Shown: positions 20,785-62,499 of the stretch, piece by piece
How positions within the stretch are numbered: position 1 is the stretch's first letter
Layout: the number at the start of each line of letters is the position of its first letter
NCBI GenBank assembly: GCA_003671055.1
Contig: QWPV01000001.1
Coordinates: 9,983-72,481 of the forward strand
Source of the DNA: Planctomycetota bacterium
GTDB lineage: Bacteria; Planctomycetota; Phycisphaerae; Phycisphaerales; SM1A02
Reading direction: 5' to 3'
Length of the DNA: 62,499 bases
The notes under the pieces: generated by a model
What the model was told of the DNA's origin: nothing
The model's database searches: none
What the model saw: the letters and a program-made list of their open reading frames with translations, nothing else
Program-made: the position numbers and the translations under genes

Positions 20785-22977
20785 ATGCACATTGATATCG
20801 CCCTATTGCTCCATGCTGCGCTTGCGCTCTCGAGTCCGAATGCACCGGTGCCTCCGCAAGTTGTTGCTGCCGCGCCTCGCGTTGACGCGCAGCCTCGCTT
20901 TCGCGCCATTGCGGGCGAACTTGATTTCACGGGCGAGCTCATCGCGCGTCCTCGGCAGGATCTCACGCGTGCGGAGCGGAAGGCTGCGCTGAAGTTGATC
21001 GCGGGCGAGACGCTTCGGCATCACGCGGCGACGGATGAGTTCATTCTTTGCAGCGGTGTCGCGCTTGAGCCACTTGGTGCGTATGAGAATCGCCGCAGCG
21101 ACTCGCTGCTTGCGAGCGGACTCTTTCAGTATGTGCATCCGAACTGGATGCTCTATCCGGTCACTGTGCCGAATGATCCTCGCGTTGGTGAGCAGTGGCA
21201 TCACGCGATGATGCATTCGTATGACGCGTGGACGATTTCGAGCGGCTCGCCGTCGGTGATCGTCGCTGTGACGGATACGGGCATCGTGCCGCACGAAGAT
21301 TTGACGCATCGCGTGAGTGGCTACAACGCAGTTTCACTCGTGCCTGAAGCACTCGGCGGTGATCTCACTGATATCCATGGTCACGGGACACATGTTGCAG
21401 GATGCGCAGCAGCAACTGGCGACAATGGCGTCGGTGTTGCGGGCAGCGGATGGAATCTTTCGGTGATGCCGATTCGCGTGAGCGAGGCATCGAATGGCGG
21501 CGCGTCGTTTGAATCGCTGCTCGCTGGTTCGCGTTGGGCGATTGAAAATGGCGCGAAGGTCACAAGCGCTAGTTACTCCGGCATTGGCTACGACGCGGTG
21601 GAAACGACTGGCGCTTACATTCACTCGCTCGATGGTTCACTCATGTGGGCAGCGGGAAACTCTTCAACCAATCACGCGGGTTGGGATTTCGAGAATGTGC
21701 TCGTCGTTGGCGCGAGCGATTCCAACGATCAGCGCGCGTACTTCTCGAGCTACGGTCGCGGCGTTGATCTCTTCTCGCCTGGAGTTGGGATCCTGAGTTC
21801 GACAACCGATGGTGGATACCAAGCCTGGAGCGGCACAAGCATGGCGACGCCGGTTGCCAACGGCGCGCTCGGCGTGATTCGCTCGGCAAATCCAGCGCTT
21901 TCGGCGCGGCACGCGGAGTACATCCTCCTGCACACCTGTGATAGTTGGGGAGACATGGCGAACTCGGTGGAGTGGGGCTTCGGTCGCATTCATCTTCAAC
22001 ATGCAGCCGAACAGGCGATCGCTGCCTCGTCGCCGCAAGCGCCCATTGCACGCAATGATTACATGCGATCATTTGTGGGCGCGGATGTCTTGATCGACGC
22101 ACTCATCAACGATTACGACGCAAACATGGATACGCTCGTGTTTGATTGGGTCGCGAGCGAGAGTTCACTTGGTGATGTTGTGGAGATCGAACCGCTGCAG
22201 GGCGCAGGCTCACCCGTGCAGATTCGCATGCTCGCGGACATCGACGCGCCCACTGGACTGCGCACCATCGCCTATCGACTTCGCGAACCGATCGCGGGGC
22301 AAACTGCGGAAGCAGTGATGACCGTGATGCTCGAGCCGCTTCGTGTTGCAGTGCAGCCCGTGGGTGAACTACCTGGGCTCGCGTGCAACTACTACGCGAT
22401 TGATGCACTCAGCGCATTACCTGATTGGTCGACACTCACGCCCTACCGCTCTGAATTTGTGCGGGAAATCAACTACGCGAGCACGAATGGCAATTACGCC
22501 AACAGTGAACGCGCTGATCAAGTTGGCGCGGTGTATGACGGCTGGCTGTCCGTGCCGGCGCCCGGCTTGTGGACGGTGTCCATCACCTCCGATGACGGTT
22601 CACGCATGTCCATCGGCAACGAAATGGTGATCAACAACGATGGCCTGCACGGCATGCAAACCGCCTCCGCGCAGTTCGCGTTTAGCGCGGGCATGTATCC
22701 GATTCGACTCGAGTTCTTCGAGAACGGCGGCGGTGCAGGATTCACCGTCAACTGGATTGGTCCGGGCATGCCCTCCGCCGCGATCGCTGCGCCGTACTTC
22801 TTCCATGGTGGCGCAGTTTCACCAGCGGATATCAATCACGATGGACGCATCGACGCTGCGGATCTTGCGGCGGTACTGAGTGCATGGGGTTCAACGAGTG
22901 GTGACGCGGACATCAACAACGATGGCGTCGTCAACGCGGTCGACCTGTCGTTCATCTTGAGTGGTTGGGGCGAGTAA
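20785..22977 (+). CDS. Secreted subtilisin-like serine protease with PA14 and dockerin-like domains
   Basis: 730 aa from an ATG giving a short hydrophobic signal (MHIDIALLLHAALALSS). The S8 peptidase domain (about residues 150-415) has the complete triad: Asp in VIVAVTDTGIVPHEDL, His in DIHGHGTHVAGC, Ser in SGTSMATPVANGA. A beta-rich region follows, then a PA14-like domain (about 550-680; YDGWLSVPAPGLWTVSITSD, GMYPIRLEFFENGGGAG), which usually binds carbohydrate, and a C-terminal double EF-hand dockerin-like module (DINHDGRIDAADL, DINNDGVVNAVDL). It is predicted to be an extracellular protease displayed or assembled through its C-terminus. Confidence 0.92.
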   Translation: MHIDIALLLHAALALSSPNAPVPPQVVAAAPRVDAQPRFRAIAGELDFTGELIARPRQDLTRAERKAALKLIAGETLRHHAATDEFILCSGVALEPLGAYENRRSDSLLASGLFQYVHPNWMLYPVTVPNDPRVGEQWHHAMMHSYDAWTISSGSPSVIVAVTDTGIVPHEDLTHRVSGYNAVSLVPEALGGDLTDIHGHGTHVAGCAAATGDNGVGVAGSGWNLSVMPIRVSEASNGGASFESLLAGSRWAIENGAKVTSASYSGIGYDAVETTGAYIHSLDGSLMWAAGNSSTNHAGWDFENVLVVGASDSNDQRAYFSSYGRGVDLFSPGVGILSSTTDGGYQAWSGTSMATPVANGALGVIRSANPALSARHAEYILLHTCDSWGDMANSVEWGFGRIHLQHAAEQAIAASSPQAPIARNDYMRSFVGADVLIDALINDYDANMDTLVFDWVASESSLGDVVEIEPLQGAGSPVQIRMLADIDAPTGLRTIAYRLREPIAGQTAEAVMTVMLEPLRVAVQPVGELPGLACNYYAIDALSALPDWSTLTPYRSEFVREINYASTNGNYANSERADQVGAVYDGWLSVPAPGLWTVSITSDDGSRMSIGNEMVINNDGLHGMQTASAQFAFSAGMYPIRLEFFENGGGAGFTVNWIGPGMPSAAIAAPYFFHGGAVSPADINHDGRIDAADLAAVLSAWGSTSGDADINNDGVVNAVDLSFILSGWGE

Positions 22978-52410: not shown

Positions 52411-53331
52411 TCAGTGCGCGTCGTCGCGATGCAAGCACGCGCGGAGATTGTCCTCACACGCTGCGAGTCGCGCACTCGCAGCGCTGCGCGAACATTGATG
52501 TGCACGCATCACGAGTGCGAGCTTGAGTGATCCTTCTGCGTTGCGCAATGCATCAAGCGCCGATGCACTCGTGTCGCTCGGAAAAAACTCGCGATAGATT
52601 CGAATCGCGCGATCGACGAGTTTGTCATTCGTCGCAGCAAGATCCACCATGAGATTGCCGTACACCTTGCCGCGTTTCACGAACACTGCAGTGGTGATTG
52701 CATTGAGTGCAATCTTCGTCGCGGTGCCAGCCTTCAGTCGCGTCGAACCAGTGAGTACTTCAGGACCCGTGGCAAGTACAAGCCAGTGATCGCAACACTC
52801 TGGCCGCGCGTGCGGTGCGCAGGTGAGAAACGCAGTCACTGCGCCGCGAGCCTTTGCGAGTCGAAGTGCGCCCAACACATACGGCGTCGTGCCACCTGCT
52901 GCGATTCCAACGAACGCATCCTTTTCGCACACACCAAGTCGTTCAAACTCTTCGGCGATCCCCTCCCACTCATCTTCGCGTCCTTCACTCGACTTCCGAA
53001 GCGCTCCATCACCGCCCGCCATGATGCCCACAACTTGCGCGGGATCTGAGCGAAACGTCGGCGGGCATTCACTCGCATCAAGTACGCCGAGTCGCCCACT
53101 CGTGCCCGCACCTGCGTAGATCAATCGTCCACCCTGCGCGAGTTGCGCGGCGGCAACCTCGGCAAACGCAGCGAGTTCCGCCGCGCATGCTTCCACCGCA
53201 GCAACCGCATCATGTTGATCGCGCGCGAGCAGTTGCACGACCTCAAGCGTGCTCATCACATCGAGCGCTGCCGATGCTGCATTTCGCGCCTCGGTTGCAA
53301 CGTGCGAGCGATCGGGAGGAAGCAGCATCAT
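52411..53331 (-). CDS. murQ: N-acetylmuramic acid 6-phosphate etherase
   Basis: 306 aa. Cleaves the lactyl ether of MurNAc-6-phosphate to GlcNAc-6-phosphate in cell-wall recycling. The SIS-type sugar-phosphate site is GRLIYAGAGTSGRLGVLDASECPPTF; further family motifs are AGGDGALRKSSEGRED and LTGSTRLKAGTATKIALN. Length is normal. It overlaps the end of the upstream peptidase gene by 4 nt (ATGA). Its presence supports a peptidoglycan wall with recycling in this organism. Confidence 0.95.
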   Translation of the reverse strand: MMLLPPDRSHVATEARNAASAALDVMSTLEVVQLLARDQHDAVAAVEACAAELAAFAEVAAAQLAQGGRLIYAGAGTSGRLGVLDASECPPTFRSDPAQVVGIMAGGDGALRKSSEGREDEWEGIAEEFERLGVCEKDAFVGIAAGGTTPYVLGALRLAKARGAVTAFLTCAPHARPECCDHWLVLATGPEVLTGSTRLKAGTATKIALNAITTAVFVKRGKVYGNLMVDLAATNDKLVDRAIRIYREFFPSDTSASALDALRNAEGSLKLALVMRAHQCSRSAASARLAACEDNLRACLHRDDAH

Positions 53332-55607
53332 GCGCCACCTTCGCTCGGCGCAGCAGATTCCTCTCCCGCGCCGGAGTTTGCATCAGGGCGAACCCAACGC
53401 GTCGGTGAGGGCTGCAGCGCGTCCACTAGAAAACTCCACTTCACGCTCTCCACTGCAGGCGACCAAATGCCGTGCTCCGAATTCGCGAACGCCATCATGG
53501 AGAACGGTCGGTTGATCGACTGCAACGCATTCGCAAGTTCGAAGGTGTTCGCAGGGTGCACATTGTCATCCACCATCCCGTGCAGCAACAGCAACTTGCC
53601 CTTGAGATTCCCCGCATGCTTCACGCAACTGCCGAGGTCGTAGCCCTCCGCGTTCTCCGCAGGAAGTTGCATGTACCGCTCGGTGTAAATCGAATCGTAG
53701 TTGCGCCAATCCGTCACAGGCGCGCCTGCAACGGCTGCTGCGAAAACCTCTGGATGACGAATGATGCAGATGGCGGACATGTAGCCGCCGTAACTGTGAC
53801 CAGTGATGCCGACGCGCTTTCCATCGATGTACGCACGGTCACTCACAAGGAACGACACCGCCGCTGCTTGATCATCCGCATCAGCACCACCGAGTGCCCG
53901 ATAGGTCGCAGTCTCGAATGCTTTGCCGCGACCAGGCGTGCCGCGATTGTCGACGCGTGCAATGAGAAAGCCCAACGCGGTGTGTGGATTGCACGGTCGC
54001 CACACATCTTTCACCAACTGCACCGTTGGACCGCCGTAGGTATCGACGATGAGTGGATAGGACTTCGTCTCATCAAATGCTGGCGGAAAGAACAACTCGC
54101 CATAAAGATCCGTAACCCCATCGGCTGCTTTACACGTGAAAAGTTCACTCGCGCGAATGCCCTGCGCAGCAAGCGTCGAGTCGTCGCCAGTTGCGATCGT
54201 TGCAATCAACCCCGCATGTTCACCACGGCGCGCATACACCACCGTGCGCGGAGGAACCGAGTGTGACTCCGCCGTTGCGACGACAGACTCACCATCGGGT
54301 GCAATGCGGAAGTCTGAGTGGCTCAGCGGCTCACTCGTCACGCACGTACTTCCAGTGCCGTCAAGTTTCGCGACATGCAATTGCGCTTGCACCGCATTCG
54401 CGCTCGCGCCGATCGGCGCCGTGTACCAGAGATCGCCGTGCTTTTCATCCACCAGCACGATCTCATGCGCGGGAAAATCATTCGTCGTCACACTGATCAC
54501 CGAGTCATCCGCGAGTGATCGAATCTCGTAGTTCTTGAATCCGTTCTTCTCCGTCTCGAAGATGAAGTGCACACCATCCTCAAGAAATCGCGTGAGTGGA
54601 CGGTTCTCTTGCCAGGCCGCCTGCGTCTCGCGATGCACCACGCGGCTTGCGCCTGTAGATGGATTCGCTGCGACAATCTCTACGAAATCCTGTCGGCGCG
54701 AGGCTCGATTGAAAAGAAGTTCCTTGCCATCAGGCGACCATCGCACGTTGTAGACGTAGTGCTCCGCGTCTTCAGGAAGCGCAGAATCAACCTTGGTCGT
54801 CTCGCCGCTCTTCATGTCGTAGACAAGAATCTCCGCGGTTGGATTCGGTTCACCTGGTTTCGGATACGCCTCGCTCATCAATGCGGTGCGCGTTGTTGAA
54901 AGACCACCAAGCAGCCAGTAGTCCTTCACCTTCGACTCATCAAATCGATAGAACGCGAGCTTCGAAGAATCCGGCGACCACCACATCGCAGTCGTCTGAT
55001 CAAGTTCTTCGCCGTAGACCCAACTCGCGGTGCCGTACTTGATGCGCCCTTCACCACCATCCTCCGTGATGCGCTTCGCCTTAGCCTCTTGCACGACTGC
55101 TGCAACAGGTGCCGCAGGTTTCTTCGCACCACTGCGCGGTCGATCACCCTTCGACGCATCACGCTTGGGCTTCGCAGCCGCCGCAGCATCGGTCGGACGA
55201 AGGATCACATCGCCGTCGACAGTCTCTGCAATGAACATGCCATCAGGCGAAGTCTCTTGCGCAACTTGTCGTCCACGCCCCGCACGCTTCTCGCCCGCAG
55301 GCGGACGATCCACCGCAGGACCAAACCCATCTTTCGGCGCGCCACTCGGATTCAACTCGCCATTCTCAAGATCCACGCTCTGCCACACGCCGTCCTTCTC
55401 AAAGAAGATCCGCGATCCCGCAACCGGCCACATCACGCGGCCAATCGTGCCCCCGCCACCCGCACTTCCCGCAATGCGCGACATATGACGCATGTCCTTC
55501 GCACCAGGAATCTGCTGCAACGGCGTATACGTCTGCGCCGAAGCAAGAAGCGGAAAGCCAACAGCGATCGCGGAAACCAACGCAGTTCGAAGGAGTTTGC
55601 AGCGCAT
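53328..55607 (-). CDS. Secreted dipeptidyl-peptidase IV-like (S9B) serine peptidase
   Basis: 759 aa. Signal peptide (TALVSAIAVGFPLLASAQT). An N-terminal beta-propeller domain has the DPP4-type GTASWVYGEELDQTTAMWWS and SPDSSKLAFYRFDES, interrupted by a Lys/Arg/Ala/Pro-rich insert at about residues 118-180. The catalytic domain has Ser in VGITGHSYGGYMSA, Asp in LLHGMVDDNVHPANT and His in MAFANSEHGIW. Predicted to release dipeptides in the periplasm. The C-terminal stop overlaps the murQ start. Confidence 0.93.
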   Translation of the reverse strand: MRCKLLRTALVSAIAVGFPLLASAQTYTPLQQIPGAKDMRHMSRIAGSAGGGGTIGRVMWPVAGSRIFFEKDGVWQSVDLENGELNPSGAPKDGFGPAVDRPPAGEKRAGRGRQVAQETSPDGMFIAETVDGDVILRPTDAAAAAKPKRDASKGDRPRSGAKKPAAPVAAVVQEAKAKRITEDGGEGRIKYGTASWVYGEELDQTTAMWWSPDSSKLAFYRFDESKVKDYWLLGGLSTTRTALMSEAYPKPGEPNPTAEILVYDMKSGETTKVDSALPEDAEHYVYNVRWSPDGKELLFNRASRRQDFVEIVAANPSTGASRVVHRETQAAWQENRPLTRFLEDGVHFIFETEKNGFKNYEIRSLADDSVISVTTNDFPAHEIVLVDEKHGDLWYTAPIGASANAVQAQLHVAKLDGTGSTCVTSEPLSHSDFRIAPDGESVVATAESHSVPPRTVVYARRGEHAGLIATIATGDDSTLAAQGIRASELFTCKAADGVTDLYGELFFPPAFDETKSYPLIVDTYGGPTVQLVKDVWRPCNPHTALGFLIARVDNRGTPGRGKAFETATYRALGGADADDQAAAVSFLVSDRAYIDGKRVGITGHSYGGYMSAICIIRHPEVFAAAVAGAPVTDWRNYDSIYTERYMQLPAENAEGYDLGSCVKHAGNLKGKLLLLHGMVDDNVHPANTFELANALQSINRPFSMMAFANSEHGIWSPAVESVKWSFLVDALQPSPTRWVRPDANSGAGEESAAPSEGGA

Positions 55608-55927
55608 ACGACAAGCGTACCTCGCGCGCGTTTGGCGTTTCGTTCGGCGTATCTGAATCTCGCGAAGCGTTGCGGGTTGGATCTAGCGTCGCGGGTTTTA
55701 CATTTCGCGCAAACCAACCTCATGCAGGCCATCAAGTCTCACCGAGCGGGGTCTCGATGGAGACTCCAATGAACGAGGTTGAGCATCTGCCTCCATAGCC
55801 ATAGCCACGCGCACGCTCGGAAAACGGTAGTGTCCCGCATGCTCACGCGTTGGGTCGCGGAAGTTGCACGGCAGAAGAGAGCGAGCCGATTCACGCGGAT
55901 GCACACGAATGTGAGGAGTAAACGCAG
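55608..55927. other. Intergenic region between divergent S9 and transglutaminase-like genes
   Basis: 320 bp. Contains an inverted repeat around 55730-55765 (AGTCTC / GAGACT arms with further pairing inside) and, at its right end, the ribosome site GAGGAG for the gene at 55928. No gene, tRNA or known RNA motif was recognised. Promoters for both neighbours are expected here. Confidence 0.4.
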
Positions 55928-57307
55928 ATGCCGAGACAGCACATAGACGCCCGAGTTTGGTCACCGCGTCTTCTCCTCGCATGGGCCTGCGCCTGCGGCA
56001 TCCGTGCGATAGCGTTCGCTGATGTGCCACCACCAGCCACCGCTGTCGCGTGGAATCCAACAGAACCAATCAACCAAGCCGATGTCAAAGAATTCGTCTT
56101 GGCGCATTGGGACGATCTATGGATCGCAAACGCGAGTGGCGTGTCGTCGCTTACTGCTGCGCAGGTTCAAGCTGAGTTTCATAACGAACTCCCTTCGGAC
56201 TTTGGGCTTGTCTATCTTCCATGGGAGCGTGTGTTCCGGATCGTCTTTGCAGATCGACTTTTCCAAGCACACGACGGCAGTACCTATGATGTGTGGCAAT
56301 TGATGGCTGACGATGAACTCGTGAGAGCACAGTTTCGTGAGTTTGTTGTCACAGGCAAACTGGCACCTCAGGCGGAGCAAGACGTCTCGGCTGCTTCGAG
56401 GCACTGCGCACTCGCTCTTGAGGCGATTTCGAATCAGAGCGGAATCGAGGTCGACCAGATTTGCCTCGATGAAGCGGGAAATCTGGAGACACTGAACCTT
56501 CGGGCGGCGGCGGTTCCGAGCGACGCCGTACTCCTGCTCCAACCGCCACAAGAGACATCAGTTGAGTATGAGCGCACCGTTACTGAGCAACGACTCTGTG
56601 ATCTGCGTTGGTGGGTCCGTGCATCACACTTGCGTTGTATGTACGAAGCGGGTCTGTGGAAGGATGATCAGCATGATGATGGATTTGATTGCGATGACTT
56701 CATGATCGCGTTGCGAAATTGGCTTGTTCGTAAAATGGGAGACAGCGTCGTGGTGGGATCGTTCCTCTTTCGATGGAAGTGCGAGGGGCACGGTGAGTAC
56801 TTCGGCCATTGGATGCCGACTCTCATGCTCGGAGGTAAATACTATTTGATCGATCCCTACACGGGTGAAGTCGTAGGACCGTATCCATTCTCCCCCGCGG
56901 GTCGGCGGCAAATGGCGATGCGCGGCGTCCGCTTCCTAGATAAAGAATGCAAGGATGAGAGTGGTCGGGTGATCGAACCTCAATGGGAAGAGCCTCCATG
57001 TTTTCCGACCCGCGGATTCACGGATGCTCCAGTCACCGCGCGGGAACCACGACCTCCATTCTGGGGTAACCCTGCATCGATGGCGAGATTCTGTGAACAT
57101 CTTGCAGAGTGCTGTGGGCGGACACCACAAACATCGCATCCTCATGATGGAGGCGAGTACGTTGACCTCGAAGATCTCTGCATGCCTCCACCTTCCGGGG
57201 CCAGCGGTTGGGACATTGAGAGCTCACCATGTGATGGCGTGGACTATCTCCCGAACCCGACACCGGTTTCAGTGACGCCGAGCTGTCGTCACCTGCCTCC
57301 CCCTTGA
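55928..57307 (+). CDS. Secreted transglutaminase-like cysteine peptidase candidate
   Basis: 459 aa. Signal peptide (SPRLLLAWACACGIRAIAFA). The middle has the order expected of a transglutaminase-like Cys-His-Asp triad: DDGFDCDDFMIALRNWLVRK (Cys), then GEYFGHWMPTLMLGGKYYLIDPYTGEV (His, Asp), as in bacterial transglutaminase-like cysteine proteinases. The N-terminal 200 residues are unassigned; the C-terminal 100 are Cys/Pro-rich. Start ATG is preceded by GAGGAG. The membrane-protein gene at 57386 follows in the same direction. The enzyme call is an inference from the triad order only. Confidence 0.6.
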   Translation: MPRQHIDARVWSPRLLLAWACACGIRAIAFADVPPPATAVAWNPTEPINQADVKEFVLAHWDDLWIANASGVSSLTAAQVQAEFHNELPSDFGLVYLPWERVFRIVFADRLFQAHDGSTYDVWQLMADDELVRAQFREFVVTGKLAPQAEQDVSAASRHCALALEAISNQSGIEVDQICLDEAGNLETLNLRAAAVPSDAVLLLQPPQETSVEYERTVTEQRLCDLRWWVRASHLRCMYEAGLWKDDQHDDGFDCDDFMIALRNWLVRKMGDSVVVGSFLFRWKCEGHGEYFGHWMPTLMLGGKYYLIDPYTGEVVGPYPFSPAGRRQMAMRGVRFLDKECKDESGRVIEPQWEEPPCFPTRGFTDAPVTAREPRPPFWGNPASMARFCEHLAECCGRTPQTSHPHDGGEYVDLEDLCMPPPSGASGWDIESSPCDGVDYLPNPTPVSVTPSCRHLPPP

Positions 57308-57385
57308 ATGTAAGAGTTCGACCGTATGCGTTTTTGTTCATTCACAGGTATGTTGAGAGCAACCGCGCTCGCTCGGGAGACGGGT

Positions 57386-58528
57386 ATGACACCTGAGAAA
57401 CACCGACCAATGTTCACCCACCAGTTTTCTCGCGGATGTCGGTGGTTCCTCATCGGCTTCCTCTTTCAACAAGCGGTTGCGATGGCTACTTCCGCACTCG
57501 GATTGATACATGCTCACTACGACATTGCGCTCGGCCCGTACGTTGTCGCATGGCCGTCGCCTCCTGACAGTTTCGATCGCTTGTGGGTGTCAGGGCTTAG
57601 CCCTCTAGTGTTCCCAATGCCAGAGGCTGGCAGCGGAGACAACGGCGACCGAGGGGAGTCGTCAGGATTGCAACTAGACGACCGCGCGCGACAACCCGCG
57701 TTCTTTGTGGATCGCGCGGAGGGTCGGTTTGTGCTCTGGCGTGCAGTCCGAGGATCGGTGCTCCGCCGAAGTCTCGGCGAGCAATGGGGCATCATCGGTC
57801 CGGTTGATCCTAGGATTTTCGCAGCCCAGCAGAGGCTCGACGATCTGCTCGGCGCGGCAATTCCTCCGTCGACGCTCGACGAAATGTTGGCTTGCCTCGA
57901 CGCGCGCGATCCAAGCATTGCGCGCGATGGAAGTTCACTGAACCAAGGGGTACTGCATCGCTCAGTTGCGCAATTCGAGCGATACTTCGGATCGATCGAA
58001 ACGGAACCTCCTGTGTGGGTCGCTCCTCTCGACAACCGCAAAGCGCAGTTAAACGCGATTGGTGCGATCGAATTGCGCGCATCCGCAGGGTGGGGATGGC
58101 CATTTCATTCGACGATTGCTCGCGCGACCTACGTCTGGAACGGCACGCTGAGCGCGGACTCCATCACCTCAGAGTTGCTGAATCCTGAGAGTCCCGCATT
58201 CAGTTTCGACGCCGCGCTCGCGTGGCGCGACGAGAGCGTAGCACTCGCGCAAGCTGTTCCTAGCACCCGAAGTGATGGCGGCGCATTGTGGGTATTGATG
58301 TCGCACGACTGGATTCCAATTCCGAGCGCGTTCGGCTCGGTGACGCGCGTGTCGTTCTTCCCAGGGATTCCGTGGAAGCCGCTCTGGAGCGGAGCGATCT
58401 TGAATTCGTTCGTGTACGCCCCTGCGGCATGGATCGCGTGGATGCTGCTTCGAAACTTCTGCCGTTCGACATGTAAGCCAAGTAATGAGCTCCGTGGACC
58501 TCAGCAGGTATTAGGTAAAAGACTATAA
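57386..58528 (+). CDS. Uncharacterised membrane-anchored protein
   Basis: 380 aa, start chosen after GGGAG with 6-nt spacing. One helix near the N-terminus (WFLIGFLFQQAVAMATSALG), a large polar extracytoplasmic domain of about 300 residues and one C-terminal helix (SFVYAPAAWIAWMLLRNF) with a short basic tail. The domain is rich in Trp, Pro and Arg; no motif is recognised. The layout is similar to the zinc-ribbon protein at 15069 but without the ribbon. Same strand as the transglutaminase-like gene, 78 bp after it. Confidence 0.6.
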   Translation: MTPEKHRPMFTHQFSRGCRWFLIGFLFQQAVAMATSALGLIHAHYDIALGPYVVAWPSPPDSFDRLWVSGLSPLVFPMPEAGSGDNGDRGESSGLQLDDRARQPAFFVDRAEGRFVLWRAVRGSVLRRSLGEQWGIIGPVDPRIFAAQQRLDDLLGAAIPPSTLDEMLACLDARDPSIARDGSSLNQGVLHRSVAQFERYFGSIETEPPVWVAPLDNRKAQLNAIGAIELRASAGWGWPFHSTIARATYVWNGTLSADSITSELLNPESPAFSFDAALAWRDESVALAQAVPSTRSDGGALWVLMSHDWIPIPSAFGSVTRVSFFPGIPWKPLWSGAILNSFVYAPAAWIAWMLLRNFCRSTCKPSNELRGPQQVLGKRL

Positions 58529-58741
58529 ACCTCCACCGCTCGACCAGCGCCCCTTGTCGACGCGGATGGCACCCGCCGCTCCGGTCGGGCTTCGCCCTCA
58601 CTGCGGAATTCCGAAACAAAAGATTCGCACGCCAAGCAAACTAAATTTCAAAAAACTGACCCACGTGTAATGCAAGATTCAAGTTCTCGCGTGTAAATAG
58701 TCACCGTGAGGCATTCTTTCGGTAGCGATCGGATTCGCGCG
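58529..58741. other. Intergenic region with a nested hairpin
   Basis: 213 bp. At 58576-58606 an outer CCGC/GCGG and an inner GGGC/GCCC stem form a nested hairpin, possibly a terminator without a U-tract or a short REP-like element. The rest is AT-rich (AAATTTCAAAAAACTG) and probably carries the promoter of the next gene. Confidence 0.4.
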
Positions 58742-59143
58742 ATGCAAAGGCGACTAGAAAATCTGTGGCCGCTCCTGGCAGGACTCACGCTCGCATGCAC
58801 GATGCAGATTGGAATCGCACAGGTTCAACCATCCCCGTGGCAGCCTCTTCAAGATCATTTCTGTTGGAAGAAGAGAGTTTGCCTTGGGCCCGCACTCAGC
58901 GGGGAGTGTCAACCGCAGGGAGTTCTGTGTCTAGCTGGAACCTGTGGAAGCGGATGTACGTGAAGCTATGTTTGGGTATGCTACGAAGCCTGCGAAGAAA
59001 CTTGTGTGCACATCACCCGCATAGAGATCGGAGCCGACTGCGGCCCGAAGTGCTTGTGGCTCTCATACAATCAATGCGTCTGCGATTGCCAGGAGCTCGG
59101 AACCAACACAAATGAAGGGGGCACCTACACCCTTTGCCGCTGA
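58742..59143 (+). pseudogene. Cys-rich secreted protein ORF interrupted by an in-frame TGA
   Basis: The first 73 codons give a signal peptide (LWPLLAGLTLACTMQIGIA) and a mature part with six Cys, then TGA at 58961-58963. The same frame continues for 59 more codons to TGA 59141-59143, with nine Cys (VCYEACEETCVH, CGPKC, CVCDC and others). Cys-dense coding on both sides of the stop suggests one original protein of about 133 aa with a nonsense mutation, or recoding. If no readthrough occurs, the product is a 73-aa Cys-rich secreted peptide. No family is recognised. Confidence 0.55.
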
Positions 59144-59375
59144 TTGCCTTCACTCGAAACCTTTCTGTCGCTCCGGTGCTCTCACCACGGTCGTGCGGGA
59201 GCCTGGATTCCTACTCGGAGTTGAGCCCTGCAGCAAACTCCAGACCGCGCTCATCCATGTGATTGAAGCGCTTGGAACCTCAACCTCAACGGCTGACTTC
59301 AACTTTGACGGCGTGGTCGATGTGGATGACATAGAAGTCGTTCTTGATCGATTCGGCTCGTCGAGCGCGGATTGA
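59112..59375 (+). pseudogene. Dockerin-like C-terminal fragment
   Basis: 87 codons from ATG, ending in TADFNFDGVVDVDDIEVVLDRFG, one EF-hand-type calcium repeat of dockerin style. It overlaps the end of the Cys-rich ORF by 32 nt in another frame and has no ribosome site at a useful distance (GGAG is 15 nt or more away). It is probably the displaced 3' end of the upstream gene or of a deleted one. A small independent protein is less likely. Confidence 0.45.
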
Positions 59376-59410
59376 CTGATGCCTCGACCTACGCGGTCGG
59401 AAGGAAACCC

Positions 59411-59917
59411 ATGCGATCAGGATTTCACCTTGCAGCAATCTTCCTCTCGGTCGCGTTTCAAACAGCCTGTGGGAAGCCCGCCGACCCGACGCCACCACCG
59501 ATCGCCGCGCAGCCGAGCGGTTTTGCTGTGCATGTCGCGTCCTTGGAGCGATCGGAGAGTCGATCACTCTTGATGACGGGATCGCGCGGCGAACCTTACT
59601 TTCTCGAAGCGGTTCCACTTCTCACCGAAGCGGATGTCGAAAGGACGGCACCAATCACGAGTGCCACTGGCGGCCCAGCGCTCCAGCTCTACCTCTCGCC
59701 GCGTGCAACCGATGCTCTCGCGCAATCGTCGGGGAGATATGTTGAGCAGTACCTCGCAGTTGTGGCGGACGATCGAATCATCTGTTGCCTCTTTGTGCAC
59801 TCCCCGCTCTCGAACCAACTCATCATTCTCGGGGATTCGGAAGCGCTTCCTATGACGCGCCTTGATGAAATCGCGGCGAGAATCAACGCGCGCGGAACCG
59901 TCAGCCCGACTCCGTAG
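59411..59917 (+). CDS. Lipoprotein resembling the SecD P1 head domain
   Basis: 168 aa after GGAAGGA. Lipoprotein signal with lipobox FQTAC. The mature part follows the pattern of the first periplasmic (P1 head) domain of SecD/SecDF: YFLEAVPLLTEADVERTAPI, GGPALQLYLSPRATDALAQ, EQYLAVVADDRII, PLSNQLIILGDS and a closing helix. There are no transmembrane helices, so it is not SecD itself; the domain has been turned into a free-standing lipoprotein. Function unknown. Its stop touches the left edge of the segmental duplication. Confidence 0.65.
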   Translation: MRSGFHLAAIFLSVAFQTACGKPADPTPPPIAAQPSGFAVHVASLERSESRSLLMTGSRGEPYFLEAVPLLTEADVERTAPITSATGGPALQLYLSPRATDALAQSSGRYVEQYLAVVADDRIICCLFVHSPLSNQLIILGDSEALPMTRLDEIAARINARGTVSPTP

Positions 59918-60251
59918 AGCAATCGAGGACAGGCACAATTCCCGCGAACGCTCCGCCTACCCACAGTAGAACAAGCAACGCGGAGTATGCAGCACACGCT
60001 GCCGCACCGAGAAGTAGTAGTACGCCGGGAATCAGTATCCACTTGCCAGAAGAGGATAATTCCAACGCAGGCGTTTCGGTGCGGCGAAAGTCAGCGCCAC
60101 ACTCCGGGCAGAGCCTGTCGGAGGAACCTCGCCCTCGCAGGTCGTATTCACAATCGGCGCAAACTAGTATGAATCGCGTTGCGACGCAGGCACGAATCCA
60201 AACAAATCCACTTGTGGCAGCAGCAGCTGCGGAGATCGCAGCCCATGCCAT
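59901..60251 (-). CDS. Zinc-ribbon membrane protein (copy A)
   Basis: 116 aa from MAWAAISAAA; a TTG start further upstream is possible. Helix 1 (AWAAISAAAAATSGFVWI), a four-Cys ribbon CADCEYDLRGRGSSDRLCPECGADF, then helix 2-3 (WILIPGVLLLLGAAACAAYSALLVLLWVGG). Proteins with CxxCxYDLRG ribbons between helices are frequent in planctomycetes and uncharacterised. Nearly identical to the copy at 62142. Its C-terminus overlaps the SecD-like lipoprotein gene on the other strand by 17 nt. Confidence 0.7.
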   Translation of the reverse strand: MAWAAISAAAAATSGFVWIRACVATRFILVCADCEYDLRGRGSSDRLCPECGADFRRTETPALELSSSGKWILIPGVLLLLGAAACAAYSALLVLLWVGGAFAGIVPVLDCSTESG

Positions 60252-60297
60252 GTAGATCGGAACCCTTGATCCGTAACTCAACGACGGCGACAGCCCG
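59917..60297. repeat. Segmental duplication, copy A
   Basis: From GAGCAATCGAGG to GACAGCCCG this segment matches 61992-62499 almost base for base. I found one mismatch next to the insertion and two more in the zinc-ribbon gene. Copy B carries an extra 127 bp after the first 35 bp. Confidence 0.92.
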
Positions 60298-60354
60298 TTC
60301 GACGCGCATTCCTGCGCGATCGAAGCGTGCATTGCTGGAGATGAGCCTCAATCC

Positions 60355-60774
60355 TCACTCGCGCTCAAAGATGACTGGCGCGTCGCCTGACTCGTTCATG
60401 CCGATTCGCCACTCTTTTCGCCCATCTGGAGATGAAAGGATCAACTCGGGCTGCCCGTTGTGACCATGAAGCGTGAGCGACACTCGAGAACGCCCGTCGC
60501 TCCCGCACAGCGACACATGAGGAACATCTGCCGGCGTGAGAGACAACTCCGCGCGAACAACGCCGCTCGAGTCAAGCAACTTCAACGCGGGCGAGCCGTC
60601 CGGCTGCGTCGTGAGAAAGGCTCGCGGACTTCCCGAAGCGTCATCGACGATGAGCATCTTCGTCCGCAAAGGGAAACCAGCGCGCACGAAAGCGGGGATC
60701 GCGCTGAACGCAGCAAGCAGCGAAATGGTGAGTGCCAAGAGTCCAAGCGCCAATGCAATTCGAGATTCACGCAC
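60355..60774 (-). CDS. Membrane-anchored protein with short beta repeats
   Basis: 139 aa from a GTG start with an optimal GGAGGT ribosome site 5 nt upstream, which decides against the more distal ATG. An N-terminal anchor (IALALGLLALTISLLAAFSAI) is followed by repeated DG-x-x-R/A-x-x-L units: DDASGSPRAFLTTQPDGSPALKLLD, SSGVVRAELSL, GSDGRSRVSLTLHGHNGQPELIL, SPDGRKEWRIG. The pattern suggests a small beta solenoid or propeller-like domain. Family not named. Last gene of a three-gene minus-strand operon. Confidence 0.7.
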   Translation of the reverse strand: MRESRIALALGLLALTISLLAAFSAIPAFVRAGFPLRTKMLIVDDASGSPRAFLTTQPDGSPALKLLDSSGVVRAELSLTPADVPHVSLCGSDGRSRVSLTLHGHNGQPELILSSPDGRKEWRIGMNESGDAPVIFERE

Positions 60775-60806
60775 GCGAGACCTCCCTGTGTAGTTTTTCG
60801 AACGAC

Positions 60807-61208
60807 TTACGGTGCACAGCCTACGATGTCGATCTCCCAGTCCACGGATCGACAGTTCGACTCTTTCCAAGCGATACAGCCACAATAACTTGCCTTCGCG
60901 TTGTCCGTGGCGAAGGTGAGCAACGATTCACATGATTGCCAGTCAATGACGCCGGCGACAGTGCACCCAAATTCGCACGCAGCTACGCACGCCAGATAAG
61001 CAATCGGAGTTCCAGCAAGCAACGGCACACAGAGGACAAGGCACGCAACCGCGCAAATCGAGAGCGGTGGAACTTGGTCTTGCATACACCTAGCGAACTC
61101 GCGTAACGCGTCACCAATCCGCTGCCGATAAAGGTCATGGCAGTGTGTCAGTGAGTCACAAGGGTTCTTACTTGCGTTCGGCGGAGTTCCTTGGACGAGG
61201 CCCGTCAT
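60807..61208 (-). CDS. Cys-rich small membrane protein
   Basis: 133 aa with 16 Cys. A central hydrophobic segment (ICAVACLVLCVPLLAGTPIAYLACVAACEFGC) is followed by a Cys-containing tail (SYCGCIAWKESNCRSVDW). It overlaps the upstream gene by 4 nt (ATGA), which supports translation. No family is recognised. It lies near the other Cys-rich ORF at 58742; both may be exposed to an oxidising compartment, but a common function is speculative. Confidence 0.6.
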   Translation of the reverse strand: MTGLVQGTPPNASKNPCDSLTHCHDLYRQRIGDALREFARCMQDQVPPLSICAVACLVLCVPLLAGTPIAYLACVAACEFGCTVAGVIDWQSCESLLTFATDNAKASYCGCIAWKESNCRSVDWEIDIVGCAP

Positions 61209-61735
61209 CTCCGTGAGAAGGCGATAAGTGAAGGCGCCGCTTGCCCGATCGGAACAATATGGAAGTAGCGAGTGCCATCAGTATCGCGAGTAGCGTGGTA
61301 CAAGCCGACGACTGCGGACGCGCCTGTGGGACCCGCAAGGGTACCAACGATGAGATGCGCCTGCGCTCGAACAGCCGTGAGTGCCTCAACCTTTAGGGCG
61401 GGCAATTCACCCGACCGCGCTTGAGAGAGCATCTCAGGTCCGAGGAAAGCCGTCGTCCAACTACAAGCCTCTCCAGCGGGGCCAACGGCTGAAACTGATT
61501 GCAATTCAACTGGTTGGGTGCTGAGCGACAGTCGAATGAATTGCTCCGCGTAGGCTGTTCCGAATGTGCTAGCTCGAACTGGAGCTTGTTTCGCGGCAAG
61601 CACCGCCGCCCAATCGGCCCTGATGAGGTTTGCTCCTGTCGCGCGCGCGGGCGACCAGTACGGGGTAATACTCGCGAACAGCGTCAAGGCCATCAAGAAT
61701 AGTGATGGTGCGATCCGTGCCGCGTCTCGTTTCAT
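61205..61735 (-). CDS. Uncharacterised secreted protein
   Basis: 176 aa. Signal segment (IAPSLFLMALTLFASITPYW), then an alpha/beta-type domain with LSLSTQPVELQSVSAVGPAGE, LIVGTLAGPTGASAVVGLYHATRD and TRYFHIVPIG. No motif is recognised. First gene of the minus-strand run 61735-60355 (4-nt overlap with the next gene). Composition is similar to its neighbours. Confidence 0.6.
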   Translation of the reverse strand: MKRDAARIAPSLFLMALTLFASITPYWSPARATGANLIRADWAAVLAAKQAPVRASTFGTAYAEQFIRLSLSTQPVELQSVSAVGPAGEACSWTTAFLGPEMLSQARSGELPALKVEALTAVRAQAHLIVGTLAGPTGASAVVGLYHATRDTDGTRYFHIVPIGQAAPSLIAFSRR

Positions 61736-61860
61736 TGTTCAATCCTTCCACGAAAGTCCAATCATCCCGCAATTAAGTAACACGCAGTCTATCGCAATCA
61801 ACATGACGTGTCAAAGAGCAAACCACTGAACTTGTCAGAACATCACGGATTGTTTCGGGA

Positions 61861-61996
61861 GTGCGTTGGAAGGAGTGCGTTGGAGGAGTGCGTTGGAGGA
61901 GTGCGTTGGAGGAGTGCGTTGGACAGGCAAGCCCAGATCACAATTCTGGGAGGAGTGCGTTGGACAGGCAAGCCCAGATCACAATTCTGGGGAGCA
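61861..61996. repeat. Tandem repeats: 13-bp units and a duplicated 41-bp unit
   Basis: GTGCGTTGG starts at 61861, 61875, 61888, 61901, 61914 and 61955, the first five spaced 14, 13, 13 and 13 bp (unit GGAGTGCGTTGGA). From 61914 a 41-bp unit that ends in CCCAGATCACAATTCTGGG is repeated at 61955. Reading frames through it are by-products of the repeats. Confidence 0.95.
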
Positions 61997-62499
61997 ATCG
62001 AGGACAGGCACAATTCCCGCGAACGCTCCTCGAAAGCCAATGCAGCGTGGTTGAATCCTTCCGTCTCGGACGAGTAACGTGCATTTCCCCGATCGCCCCT
62101 TGTCCCCGATCGCCCCTCATCGGCGTACAACACGTGAAGAGCTACGCGAACGCGCCGCCTACCCACAGTAGAACAAGCAACGCGGAGTATGCAGCACACG
62201 CTGCCGCACCGAGAAGTAGTAGTACGCCGGGAATCAGTATCCACTTGCCAGAAGAGGATGATTCCAACGCAAGCGTTTCGGTGCGGCGAAAGTCAGCGCC
62301 ACACTCCGGGCAGAGCCTGTCGGAGGAACCTCGCCCTCGCAGGTCGTATTCACAATCGGCGCAAACTAGTATGAATCGCGTTGCGACGCAGGCACGAATC
62401 CAAACAAATCCACTTGTGGCAGCAGCAGCTGCGGAGATCGCAGCCCATGCCATGTAGATCGGAACCCTTGATCCGTAACTCAACGACGGCGACAGCCCG
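61992..62499. repeat. Segmental duplication, copy B (runs to window end)
   Basis: Matches 59917-60297 except for a 127-bp insertion beginning after 62026. The insertion is flanked by a 9-bp direct repeat CGCGAACGC (62018-62026 and 62145-62153) and contains TCCCCGATCGCCCCT twice (62086 and 62103). The right end of the duplication is beyond the window. Confidence 0.92.
62142..62453 (-). CDS. Zinc-ribbon membrane protein (copy B, altered C-terminus)
   Basis: 103 aa from MAWAAISAAA. Identical to copy A apart from T-P to T-L and E-L to E-S changes near the ribbon, up to the last helix (LLVLLWVGGAFA), where the 127-bp insertion brings an early TAG and removes the final 13 residues of copy A (GIVPVLDCSTESG). 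The ribbon cysteines are intact. It may still be functional because the lost part is outside the membrane helices. A TTG start at 62483 is the alternative. Confidence 0.65.
   Translation of the reverse strand: MAWAAISAAAAATSGFVWIRACVATRFILVCADCEYDLRGRGSSDRLCPECGADFRRTETLALESSSSGKWILIPGVLLLLGAAACAAYSALLVLLWVGGAFA

Follow-up and report, generated by a model that had tools for sequence, protein, structure and literature searches.

Ordinary decay very probably explains the interrupted cysteine-rich reading frame that we found in a 62,499-nucleotide stretch of planctomycete DNA (the window): a gene for a Cys-rich protein (gene 1) would have been inactivated by a nonsense codon, and the dockerin-like end that follows it is most likely the tail of a deleted partner gene (gene 2). 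We refer to the following features:

58742 to 59143, plus strand: gene 1, encoding a Cys-rich exported protein and interrupted by a TGA; homologues align across the TGA.
58961 to 58963, plus strand: the in-frame TGA of gene 1; relatives have TGG (Trp) at all seven loci, six of them distinct.
59141 to 59143, plus strand: the natural stop of gene 1, also TGA, one residue beyond the last Cys.
59187 to 59375, plus strand: the probable C-terminal remnant of gene 2, with the dockerin-like end, as judged from a gene-2 profile, shuffled sequences, and control ends.
59411 to 59917, plus strand: the open frame of a lipoprotein-like gene, with a weak match to the SecDF P1 head, below the cut-off.

The TGA at 58961–58963 shares its frame with the ATG at 58742 and with the open stretch that runs down to the TGA at 59141–59143, and 59 open codons lie behind it. 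(The start codon is uncertain, as a GTG at 58706 is equally in frame.) We read the N-terminus as a signal peptide that is followed by the Cys-rich part. The frame contains 16 Cys, seven before the TGA and nine after it; one of these sits in the presumed signal peptide, so the count of fifteen in an earlier note on this DNA fits the mature part. A profile of five relatives that excludes the window matches the two halves of gene 1 separately and in the same frame (E = 1.2e-7 before the TGA and E = 2.6e-15 behind it), so the continuity of gene 1 across the TGA is beyond chance, as that note had claimed. The five relatives share 13 Cys columns, and the window has Cys in every one of them (5 before the TGA and 8 after it). 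Behind the TGA, gene 1 is undamaged and has no second early stop, and because all of its conserved Cys there are retained, we infer that the stop is recent. A predicted structure of the Cys-rich protein (model A4) had a mean pLDDT of 39.6 and was left unused, and the Cys-rich profile had no match over the cut-off in the PDB.

The relatives of gene 1 show what the TGA replaced. When we searched with the gene 1 frame in 201 genomes (its own and 200 relatives), six genomes matched at E ≤ 0.001, namely its own, four real relatives, and one that we took as noise (L024). A profile search of 181 genomes from the same family matched eight at E ≤ 0.01, of which one (L086) was then dropped. Full-length relatives are present in G006, G081, G098, G117, G231, and G256, and G021 has a C-terminally shortened copy (L062) that was found via its neighbour gene (profile E = 7.7e-4). 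Neither the frame search nor the profile search found gene 1 in three other genomes of the genus, and the closest relative is only 36–38% identical. At the column of the TGA, all seven loci (L020, L021, L022, L023, L062, L084, and L085) have TGG; these are six distinct sequences, with L021 and L022 nearly identical. The five aligned relatives all have W there, and the codon in the window differs from their TGG by one base. The orthologue comparison thus returned a sense codon, which agrees with the view that a nonsense mutation is the simplest option, and the Trp makes it unlikely that the TGA codon descends from a codon for selenocysteine or Cys. Past the last Cys, the frame of the five distinct full-length relatives continues for 3 to 9 residues before it stops. 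Three matches are outside the count of seven loci. L024 is a chance match that contains one TGA and two TAA. L086 is weak (E = 0.0036), has two TGA inside, and has no Cys-rich frame listed. L087, which is a second weak match in G006 (E = 1.1e-5), was taken as chance, as it lies antisense to an open frame with a motif that we read as metal-binding and HMA-like. Finally, a contig scan with A3 gave one locus, L127, which is identical to L055 (the contig on which L020 lies).

We propose that the intact gene 1 coded for a small protein that was exported and had many conserved Cys. With a stop codon in place of the Trp, translation should end after 73 codons, and the short product presumably does nothing. 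Gene 1 has the hallmarks of a nonsense-mutation pseudogene: a single stop in frame, where every relative examined has a sense codon, a companion gene that is apparently degraded, and relatives that are intact. Nothing about it is notably different from that class, and the sequence behind the stop is intact, as in a young pseudogene.

That intact sequence would fit readthrough as well, which is a point against decay. The TGA could be leaky: an ordinary near-cognate tRNA-Trp would read it at a low rate and restore the ancestral Trp, giving a little full-length protein. The residue of the relatives at exactly this position is indeed Trp, the part of gene 1 behind the TGA is undamaged, and there is precedent, in PMC7918605, for bacterial in-frame stops that show signs of purifying selection. 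The readthrough candidates described there resemble gene 1 in that a single stop interrupts a frame that is otherwise intact, but those stops are common to two or more species, whereas the stop in the window is found in none of the seven relative loci. The apparent destruction of gene 2 also points to the loss of the whole function and argues against a leaky stop. As for the tRNA itself, the host genome has one tRNA-Trp(CCA) among 45 tRNAs, with a paired, normal anticodon stem of 5 bp and with G24 and A9 (in standard numbering as we assigned it). According to PMC13092985, a 4-bp anticodon stem lets tRNA-Trp(CCA) read UGA, and the suppressor states that are named there are the 4-bp stem, G24A, and A9C. 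All three are absent from the host tRNA-Trp, so we rejected a tRNA-Trp(CCA) of the suppressor type, although this does not bear on ordinary background misreading. Overall, we consider a leaky stop to be unlikely by a wide measure. We give similarly little credence to a variant of this idea, in which low-level reading of UGA as Trp is a natural damper on expression; the Cys-rich exported protein would be otherwise intact, and the cell would have given up its partner gene.

Dedicated recoding fares no better. We rejected a genetic code in which UGA means Trp: there is no UCA anticodon among the 45 tRNAs (a set that is incomplete, as it lacks tRNA-Tyr), the gene for RF2 (prfB) is over the cut-off in the host genome, and, of the 37 open frames in the window that have at least 200 codons and do not overlap (not all of which need be genes), 18 close with TGA. 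A hairpin had been noted right after the TGA, and its arms are present as letters, but the predicted fold does not pair them in that way, and 182 of 200 shuffled sequences fold at least as well as the 50 bases that begin with the TGA (z = +1.19). These results, together with the normal stem of the tRNA-Trp, speak against the programmed readthrough that the earlier note had offered as an option.

That the TGA arose from a base-calling or assembly error is also improbable. The assembly is fragmented (100 contigs), it was the only genome of the species in our comparison, and the codon differs from that of the relatives by a single base. However, there is no homopolymer at the site, and the adjoining gene 2 appears to have been broken independently by a large deletion.

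The insertion of selenocysteine, which the earlier note had also raised, is suggested by a TGA within a Cys-rich protein, but we consider it extremely improbable. First, the relatives have Trp and not Cys at this position. Second, our search of the host genome (2,845,198 bases in 100 contigs, 95.8% complete) for selA, selB, selD, and tRNA-Sec found none of them over the cut-off, with 150 of 397 candidates scored in one step. There was no match for selA at all, and the matches for selB and selD were all below the cut-off; the best selB-like match (169 of 242 bits) lies in a 443-amino-acid frame that is probably EF-Tu. The tRNA-Sec model gave 11 sub-threshold matches in the host genome, all of them ordinary tRNAs according to ARAGORN. 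Third, Rfam had no match in the window, and we saw no SECIS stem-loop or other stable hairpin. The outcome of the search for the sel genes points instead to a pseudogene.

The second part of the argument concerns the dockerin-like end. Its open frame (59112–59375) is in the frame next to that of gene 1 and shares 32 bases (59112–59143) with the open frame of gene 1. It carries a motif that resembles a calcium-binding loop (DFNFDGVVDVDDIE), with one clear loop visible, and we take it to be the kind of C-terminal end of planctomycete proteins that is labeled dockerin-like. Such proteins likewise have a Ca-loop-like motif at their end; this one differs in being a detached remnant and in having no Pfam dockerin match. 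The dockerin-like end in another frame that had been described is real, but it is not a dockerin by Pfam: a Pfam scan gave only a weak match to FG-GAP (E = 0.062, below the cut-off), and the Pfam match and the two Ca-binding repeats that mark a type I dockerin are both lacking.

In L021, L022, L023, L084, and L085, gene 1 terminates at a stop of its own, and gene 2, a distinct gene of about 375–456 codons, comes after it; the dockerin-like motif forms the end of gene 2, over 300 codons from its start. (In L020, the gene after gene 1 is truncated by the end of the contig.) This gene order bears on the proposal that programmed readthrough and a frameshift join the Cys domain and the dockerin-like end into one protein: the 32-base overlap of the two frames would allow it, but the Cys gene of the relatives stops at the matching place, the dockerin-like end is part of another gene, and no fused form is seen at any of the seven loci, so the proposal can hardly be credited. 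For the same reason, the earlier note's idea that a frameshift displaced the dockerin end of the same protein is not supported. The remnant would be in a different frame simply because gene 2 was always a separate gene.

Gene 2 itself shows little conservation, which complicates the assignment of the tail. L022 and L084 are 55% identical and L061 and L085 are 63% identical, while other pairs have 23–41% identity over part of their length. The gene 2 proteins of L020 and L023 had weak scores with the profile of the other five, yet these were above those of 1000 shuffled sequences. Across the 201 genomes, the gene-2 protein matched in 25, mostly via its similar end. We scored the part of the remnant before the motif separately. 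It reached 12.1 bits with the gene-2 profile, above all of 2000 shuffled sequences (the best had 9.3 bits). The same profile gave at most 4.5 bits on 16 control ends from elsewhere, of which 13 are sound (L068, L071, and L073 were taken on the wrong strand), and −1.1 bits on another dockerin-like end of the window. In pairwise comparisons of this part, three of six gene-2 proteins had z = 2.7 to 4.4, two of which are relatives of each other (L022 and L084), and the other three had z = −0.3 to 1.0; the controls had z of at most 1.75 (11 of the 16 were scorable). Scores over the whole length overlap, with controls up to 66 and gene 2 from 42 to 84.

Standard searches gave mixed results. With blastp against the gene-2 set, the remnant matched L023 (E = 3e-8), L084 (E = 1e-5), and L022 (E = 2e-5). 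On the other hand, the gene-2 protein P0005 had no match in the remnant's own genome at E ≤ 0.001, and a tblastn search of the window with gene-2 proteins, run on default statistics, lists the other dockerin-like end (22855–22971) and not the remnant. With the composition correction off, tblastn does find the remnant (L023, E = 4e-5; L022, E = 0.005). Between 59112 and about 59187, there is no similarity to gene 2 by profile; the alignment of the remnant with the C-terminus of gene 2 starts at about 59187.

On these comparisons, the remnant most likely derives from the tail of gene 2. This assignment is supported, but less firmly than the homology on both sides of the TGA, the Trp in the relatives, the gene order of the relatives, and the lack of detectable recoding genes. 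If it is correct, then about 1 kb of gene 2 was deleted between 59143 and about 59187, and the last ~62 codons are left of what would have been a separate exported protein of about 375–456 codons with a dockerin-like end. Like gene 1, gene 2 would then have an inactivating change where its relatives are intact, with the contrary search results noted above. In short, the two genes would form a cassette in decay, hit once by a nonsense codon and once by the loss of about 1 kb; the host planctomycete belongs to the family of a metagenome bin from the Phycisphaerales.

The genomic setting is compatible with such losses. In all three of the other genomes from the genus, the peptidase gene (53328–55607 in the window) adjoins a kinase-type gene, presumably pfkB. 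In the host, about 10.2 kb lies between these genes (as computed from coordinates), and this segment is absent from all three. It comprises 55608–62499 of the window and continues into L115:1–3300 (G000:C1 up to about 75793). The segment is thus an insertion or a variable island, where gene decay is unsurprising. Beyond the downstream edge of the window, 258 bases from the end of the kinase gene occur twice (L115:375–632 and L115:3301–3557, 97% identical).

The lipoprotein-like gene at 59411–59917 occupies the position that lipoprotein-like genes have after gene 2 in L062 and L128. A profile of those two lipoproteins did not score the 59411–59917 protein above shuffled sequences, and a pairwise comparison with the L062 lipoprotein on its own matched weakly (E = 0.005). 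The protein matched in 14 of the 201 genomes, and of the genomes with gene 1, only its own was among them. Separately, in the two genomes of L059 and L060, the gene pairs are near-identical, but the lipoprotein-like frames that come after gene 2 agree for about 70 codons and then abruptly diverge, which looks like a rearrangement. We also observed one full copy and further partial copies of a minus-strand gene for a zinc-ribbon-like membrane protein of 143 amino acids (59904–60332 and 61985–62498 in the window and L115:101–229; the proteins are 98% identical over 118 and 43 amino acids). A second small Cys-rich protein (60810–61208, minus strand) had no match to the gene-1 profile, Pfam, or NCBIfam.

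Even where the pair occurs, it is not always complete: G105 (L061) has gene 2, with gene 1 not detectable in the ~1.2 kb upstream, and gene 1 is shortened in G021. The pair seems to be dispensable. It is also without a name in the libraries that we scanned (Pfam and NCBIfam, and the PDB for the Cys-rich profile). P0001 and the gene 2 proteins of L022 and L023 had no match over the cut-off in Pfam or NCBIfam, and the same was true of P0002 in NCBIfam and of gene 2 of L062 in Pfam.

With a Trp codon in the relatives and the selenocysteine machinery not found, a possible case of recoding is closed. What the analysis yields as a by-product is a sporadic pair of exported proteins within one planctomycete family, one Cys-rich and the other with a dockerin-like end, which is seen in L021, L022, L023, L084, and L085 and in part in L020, L061, and L062.
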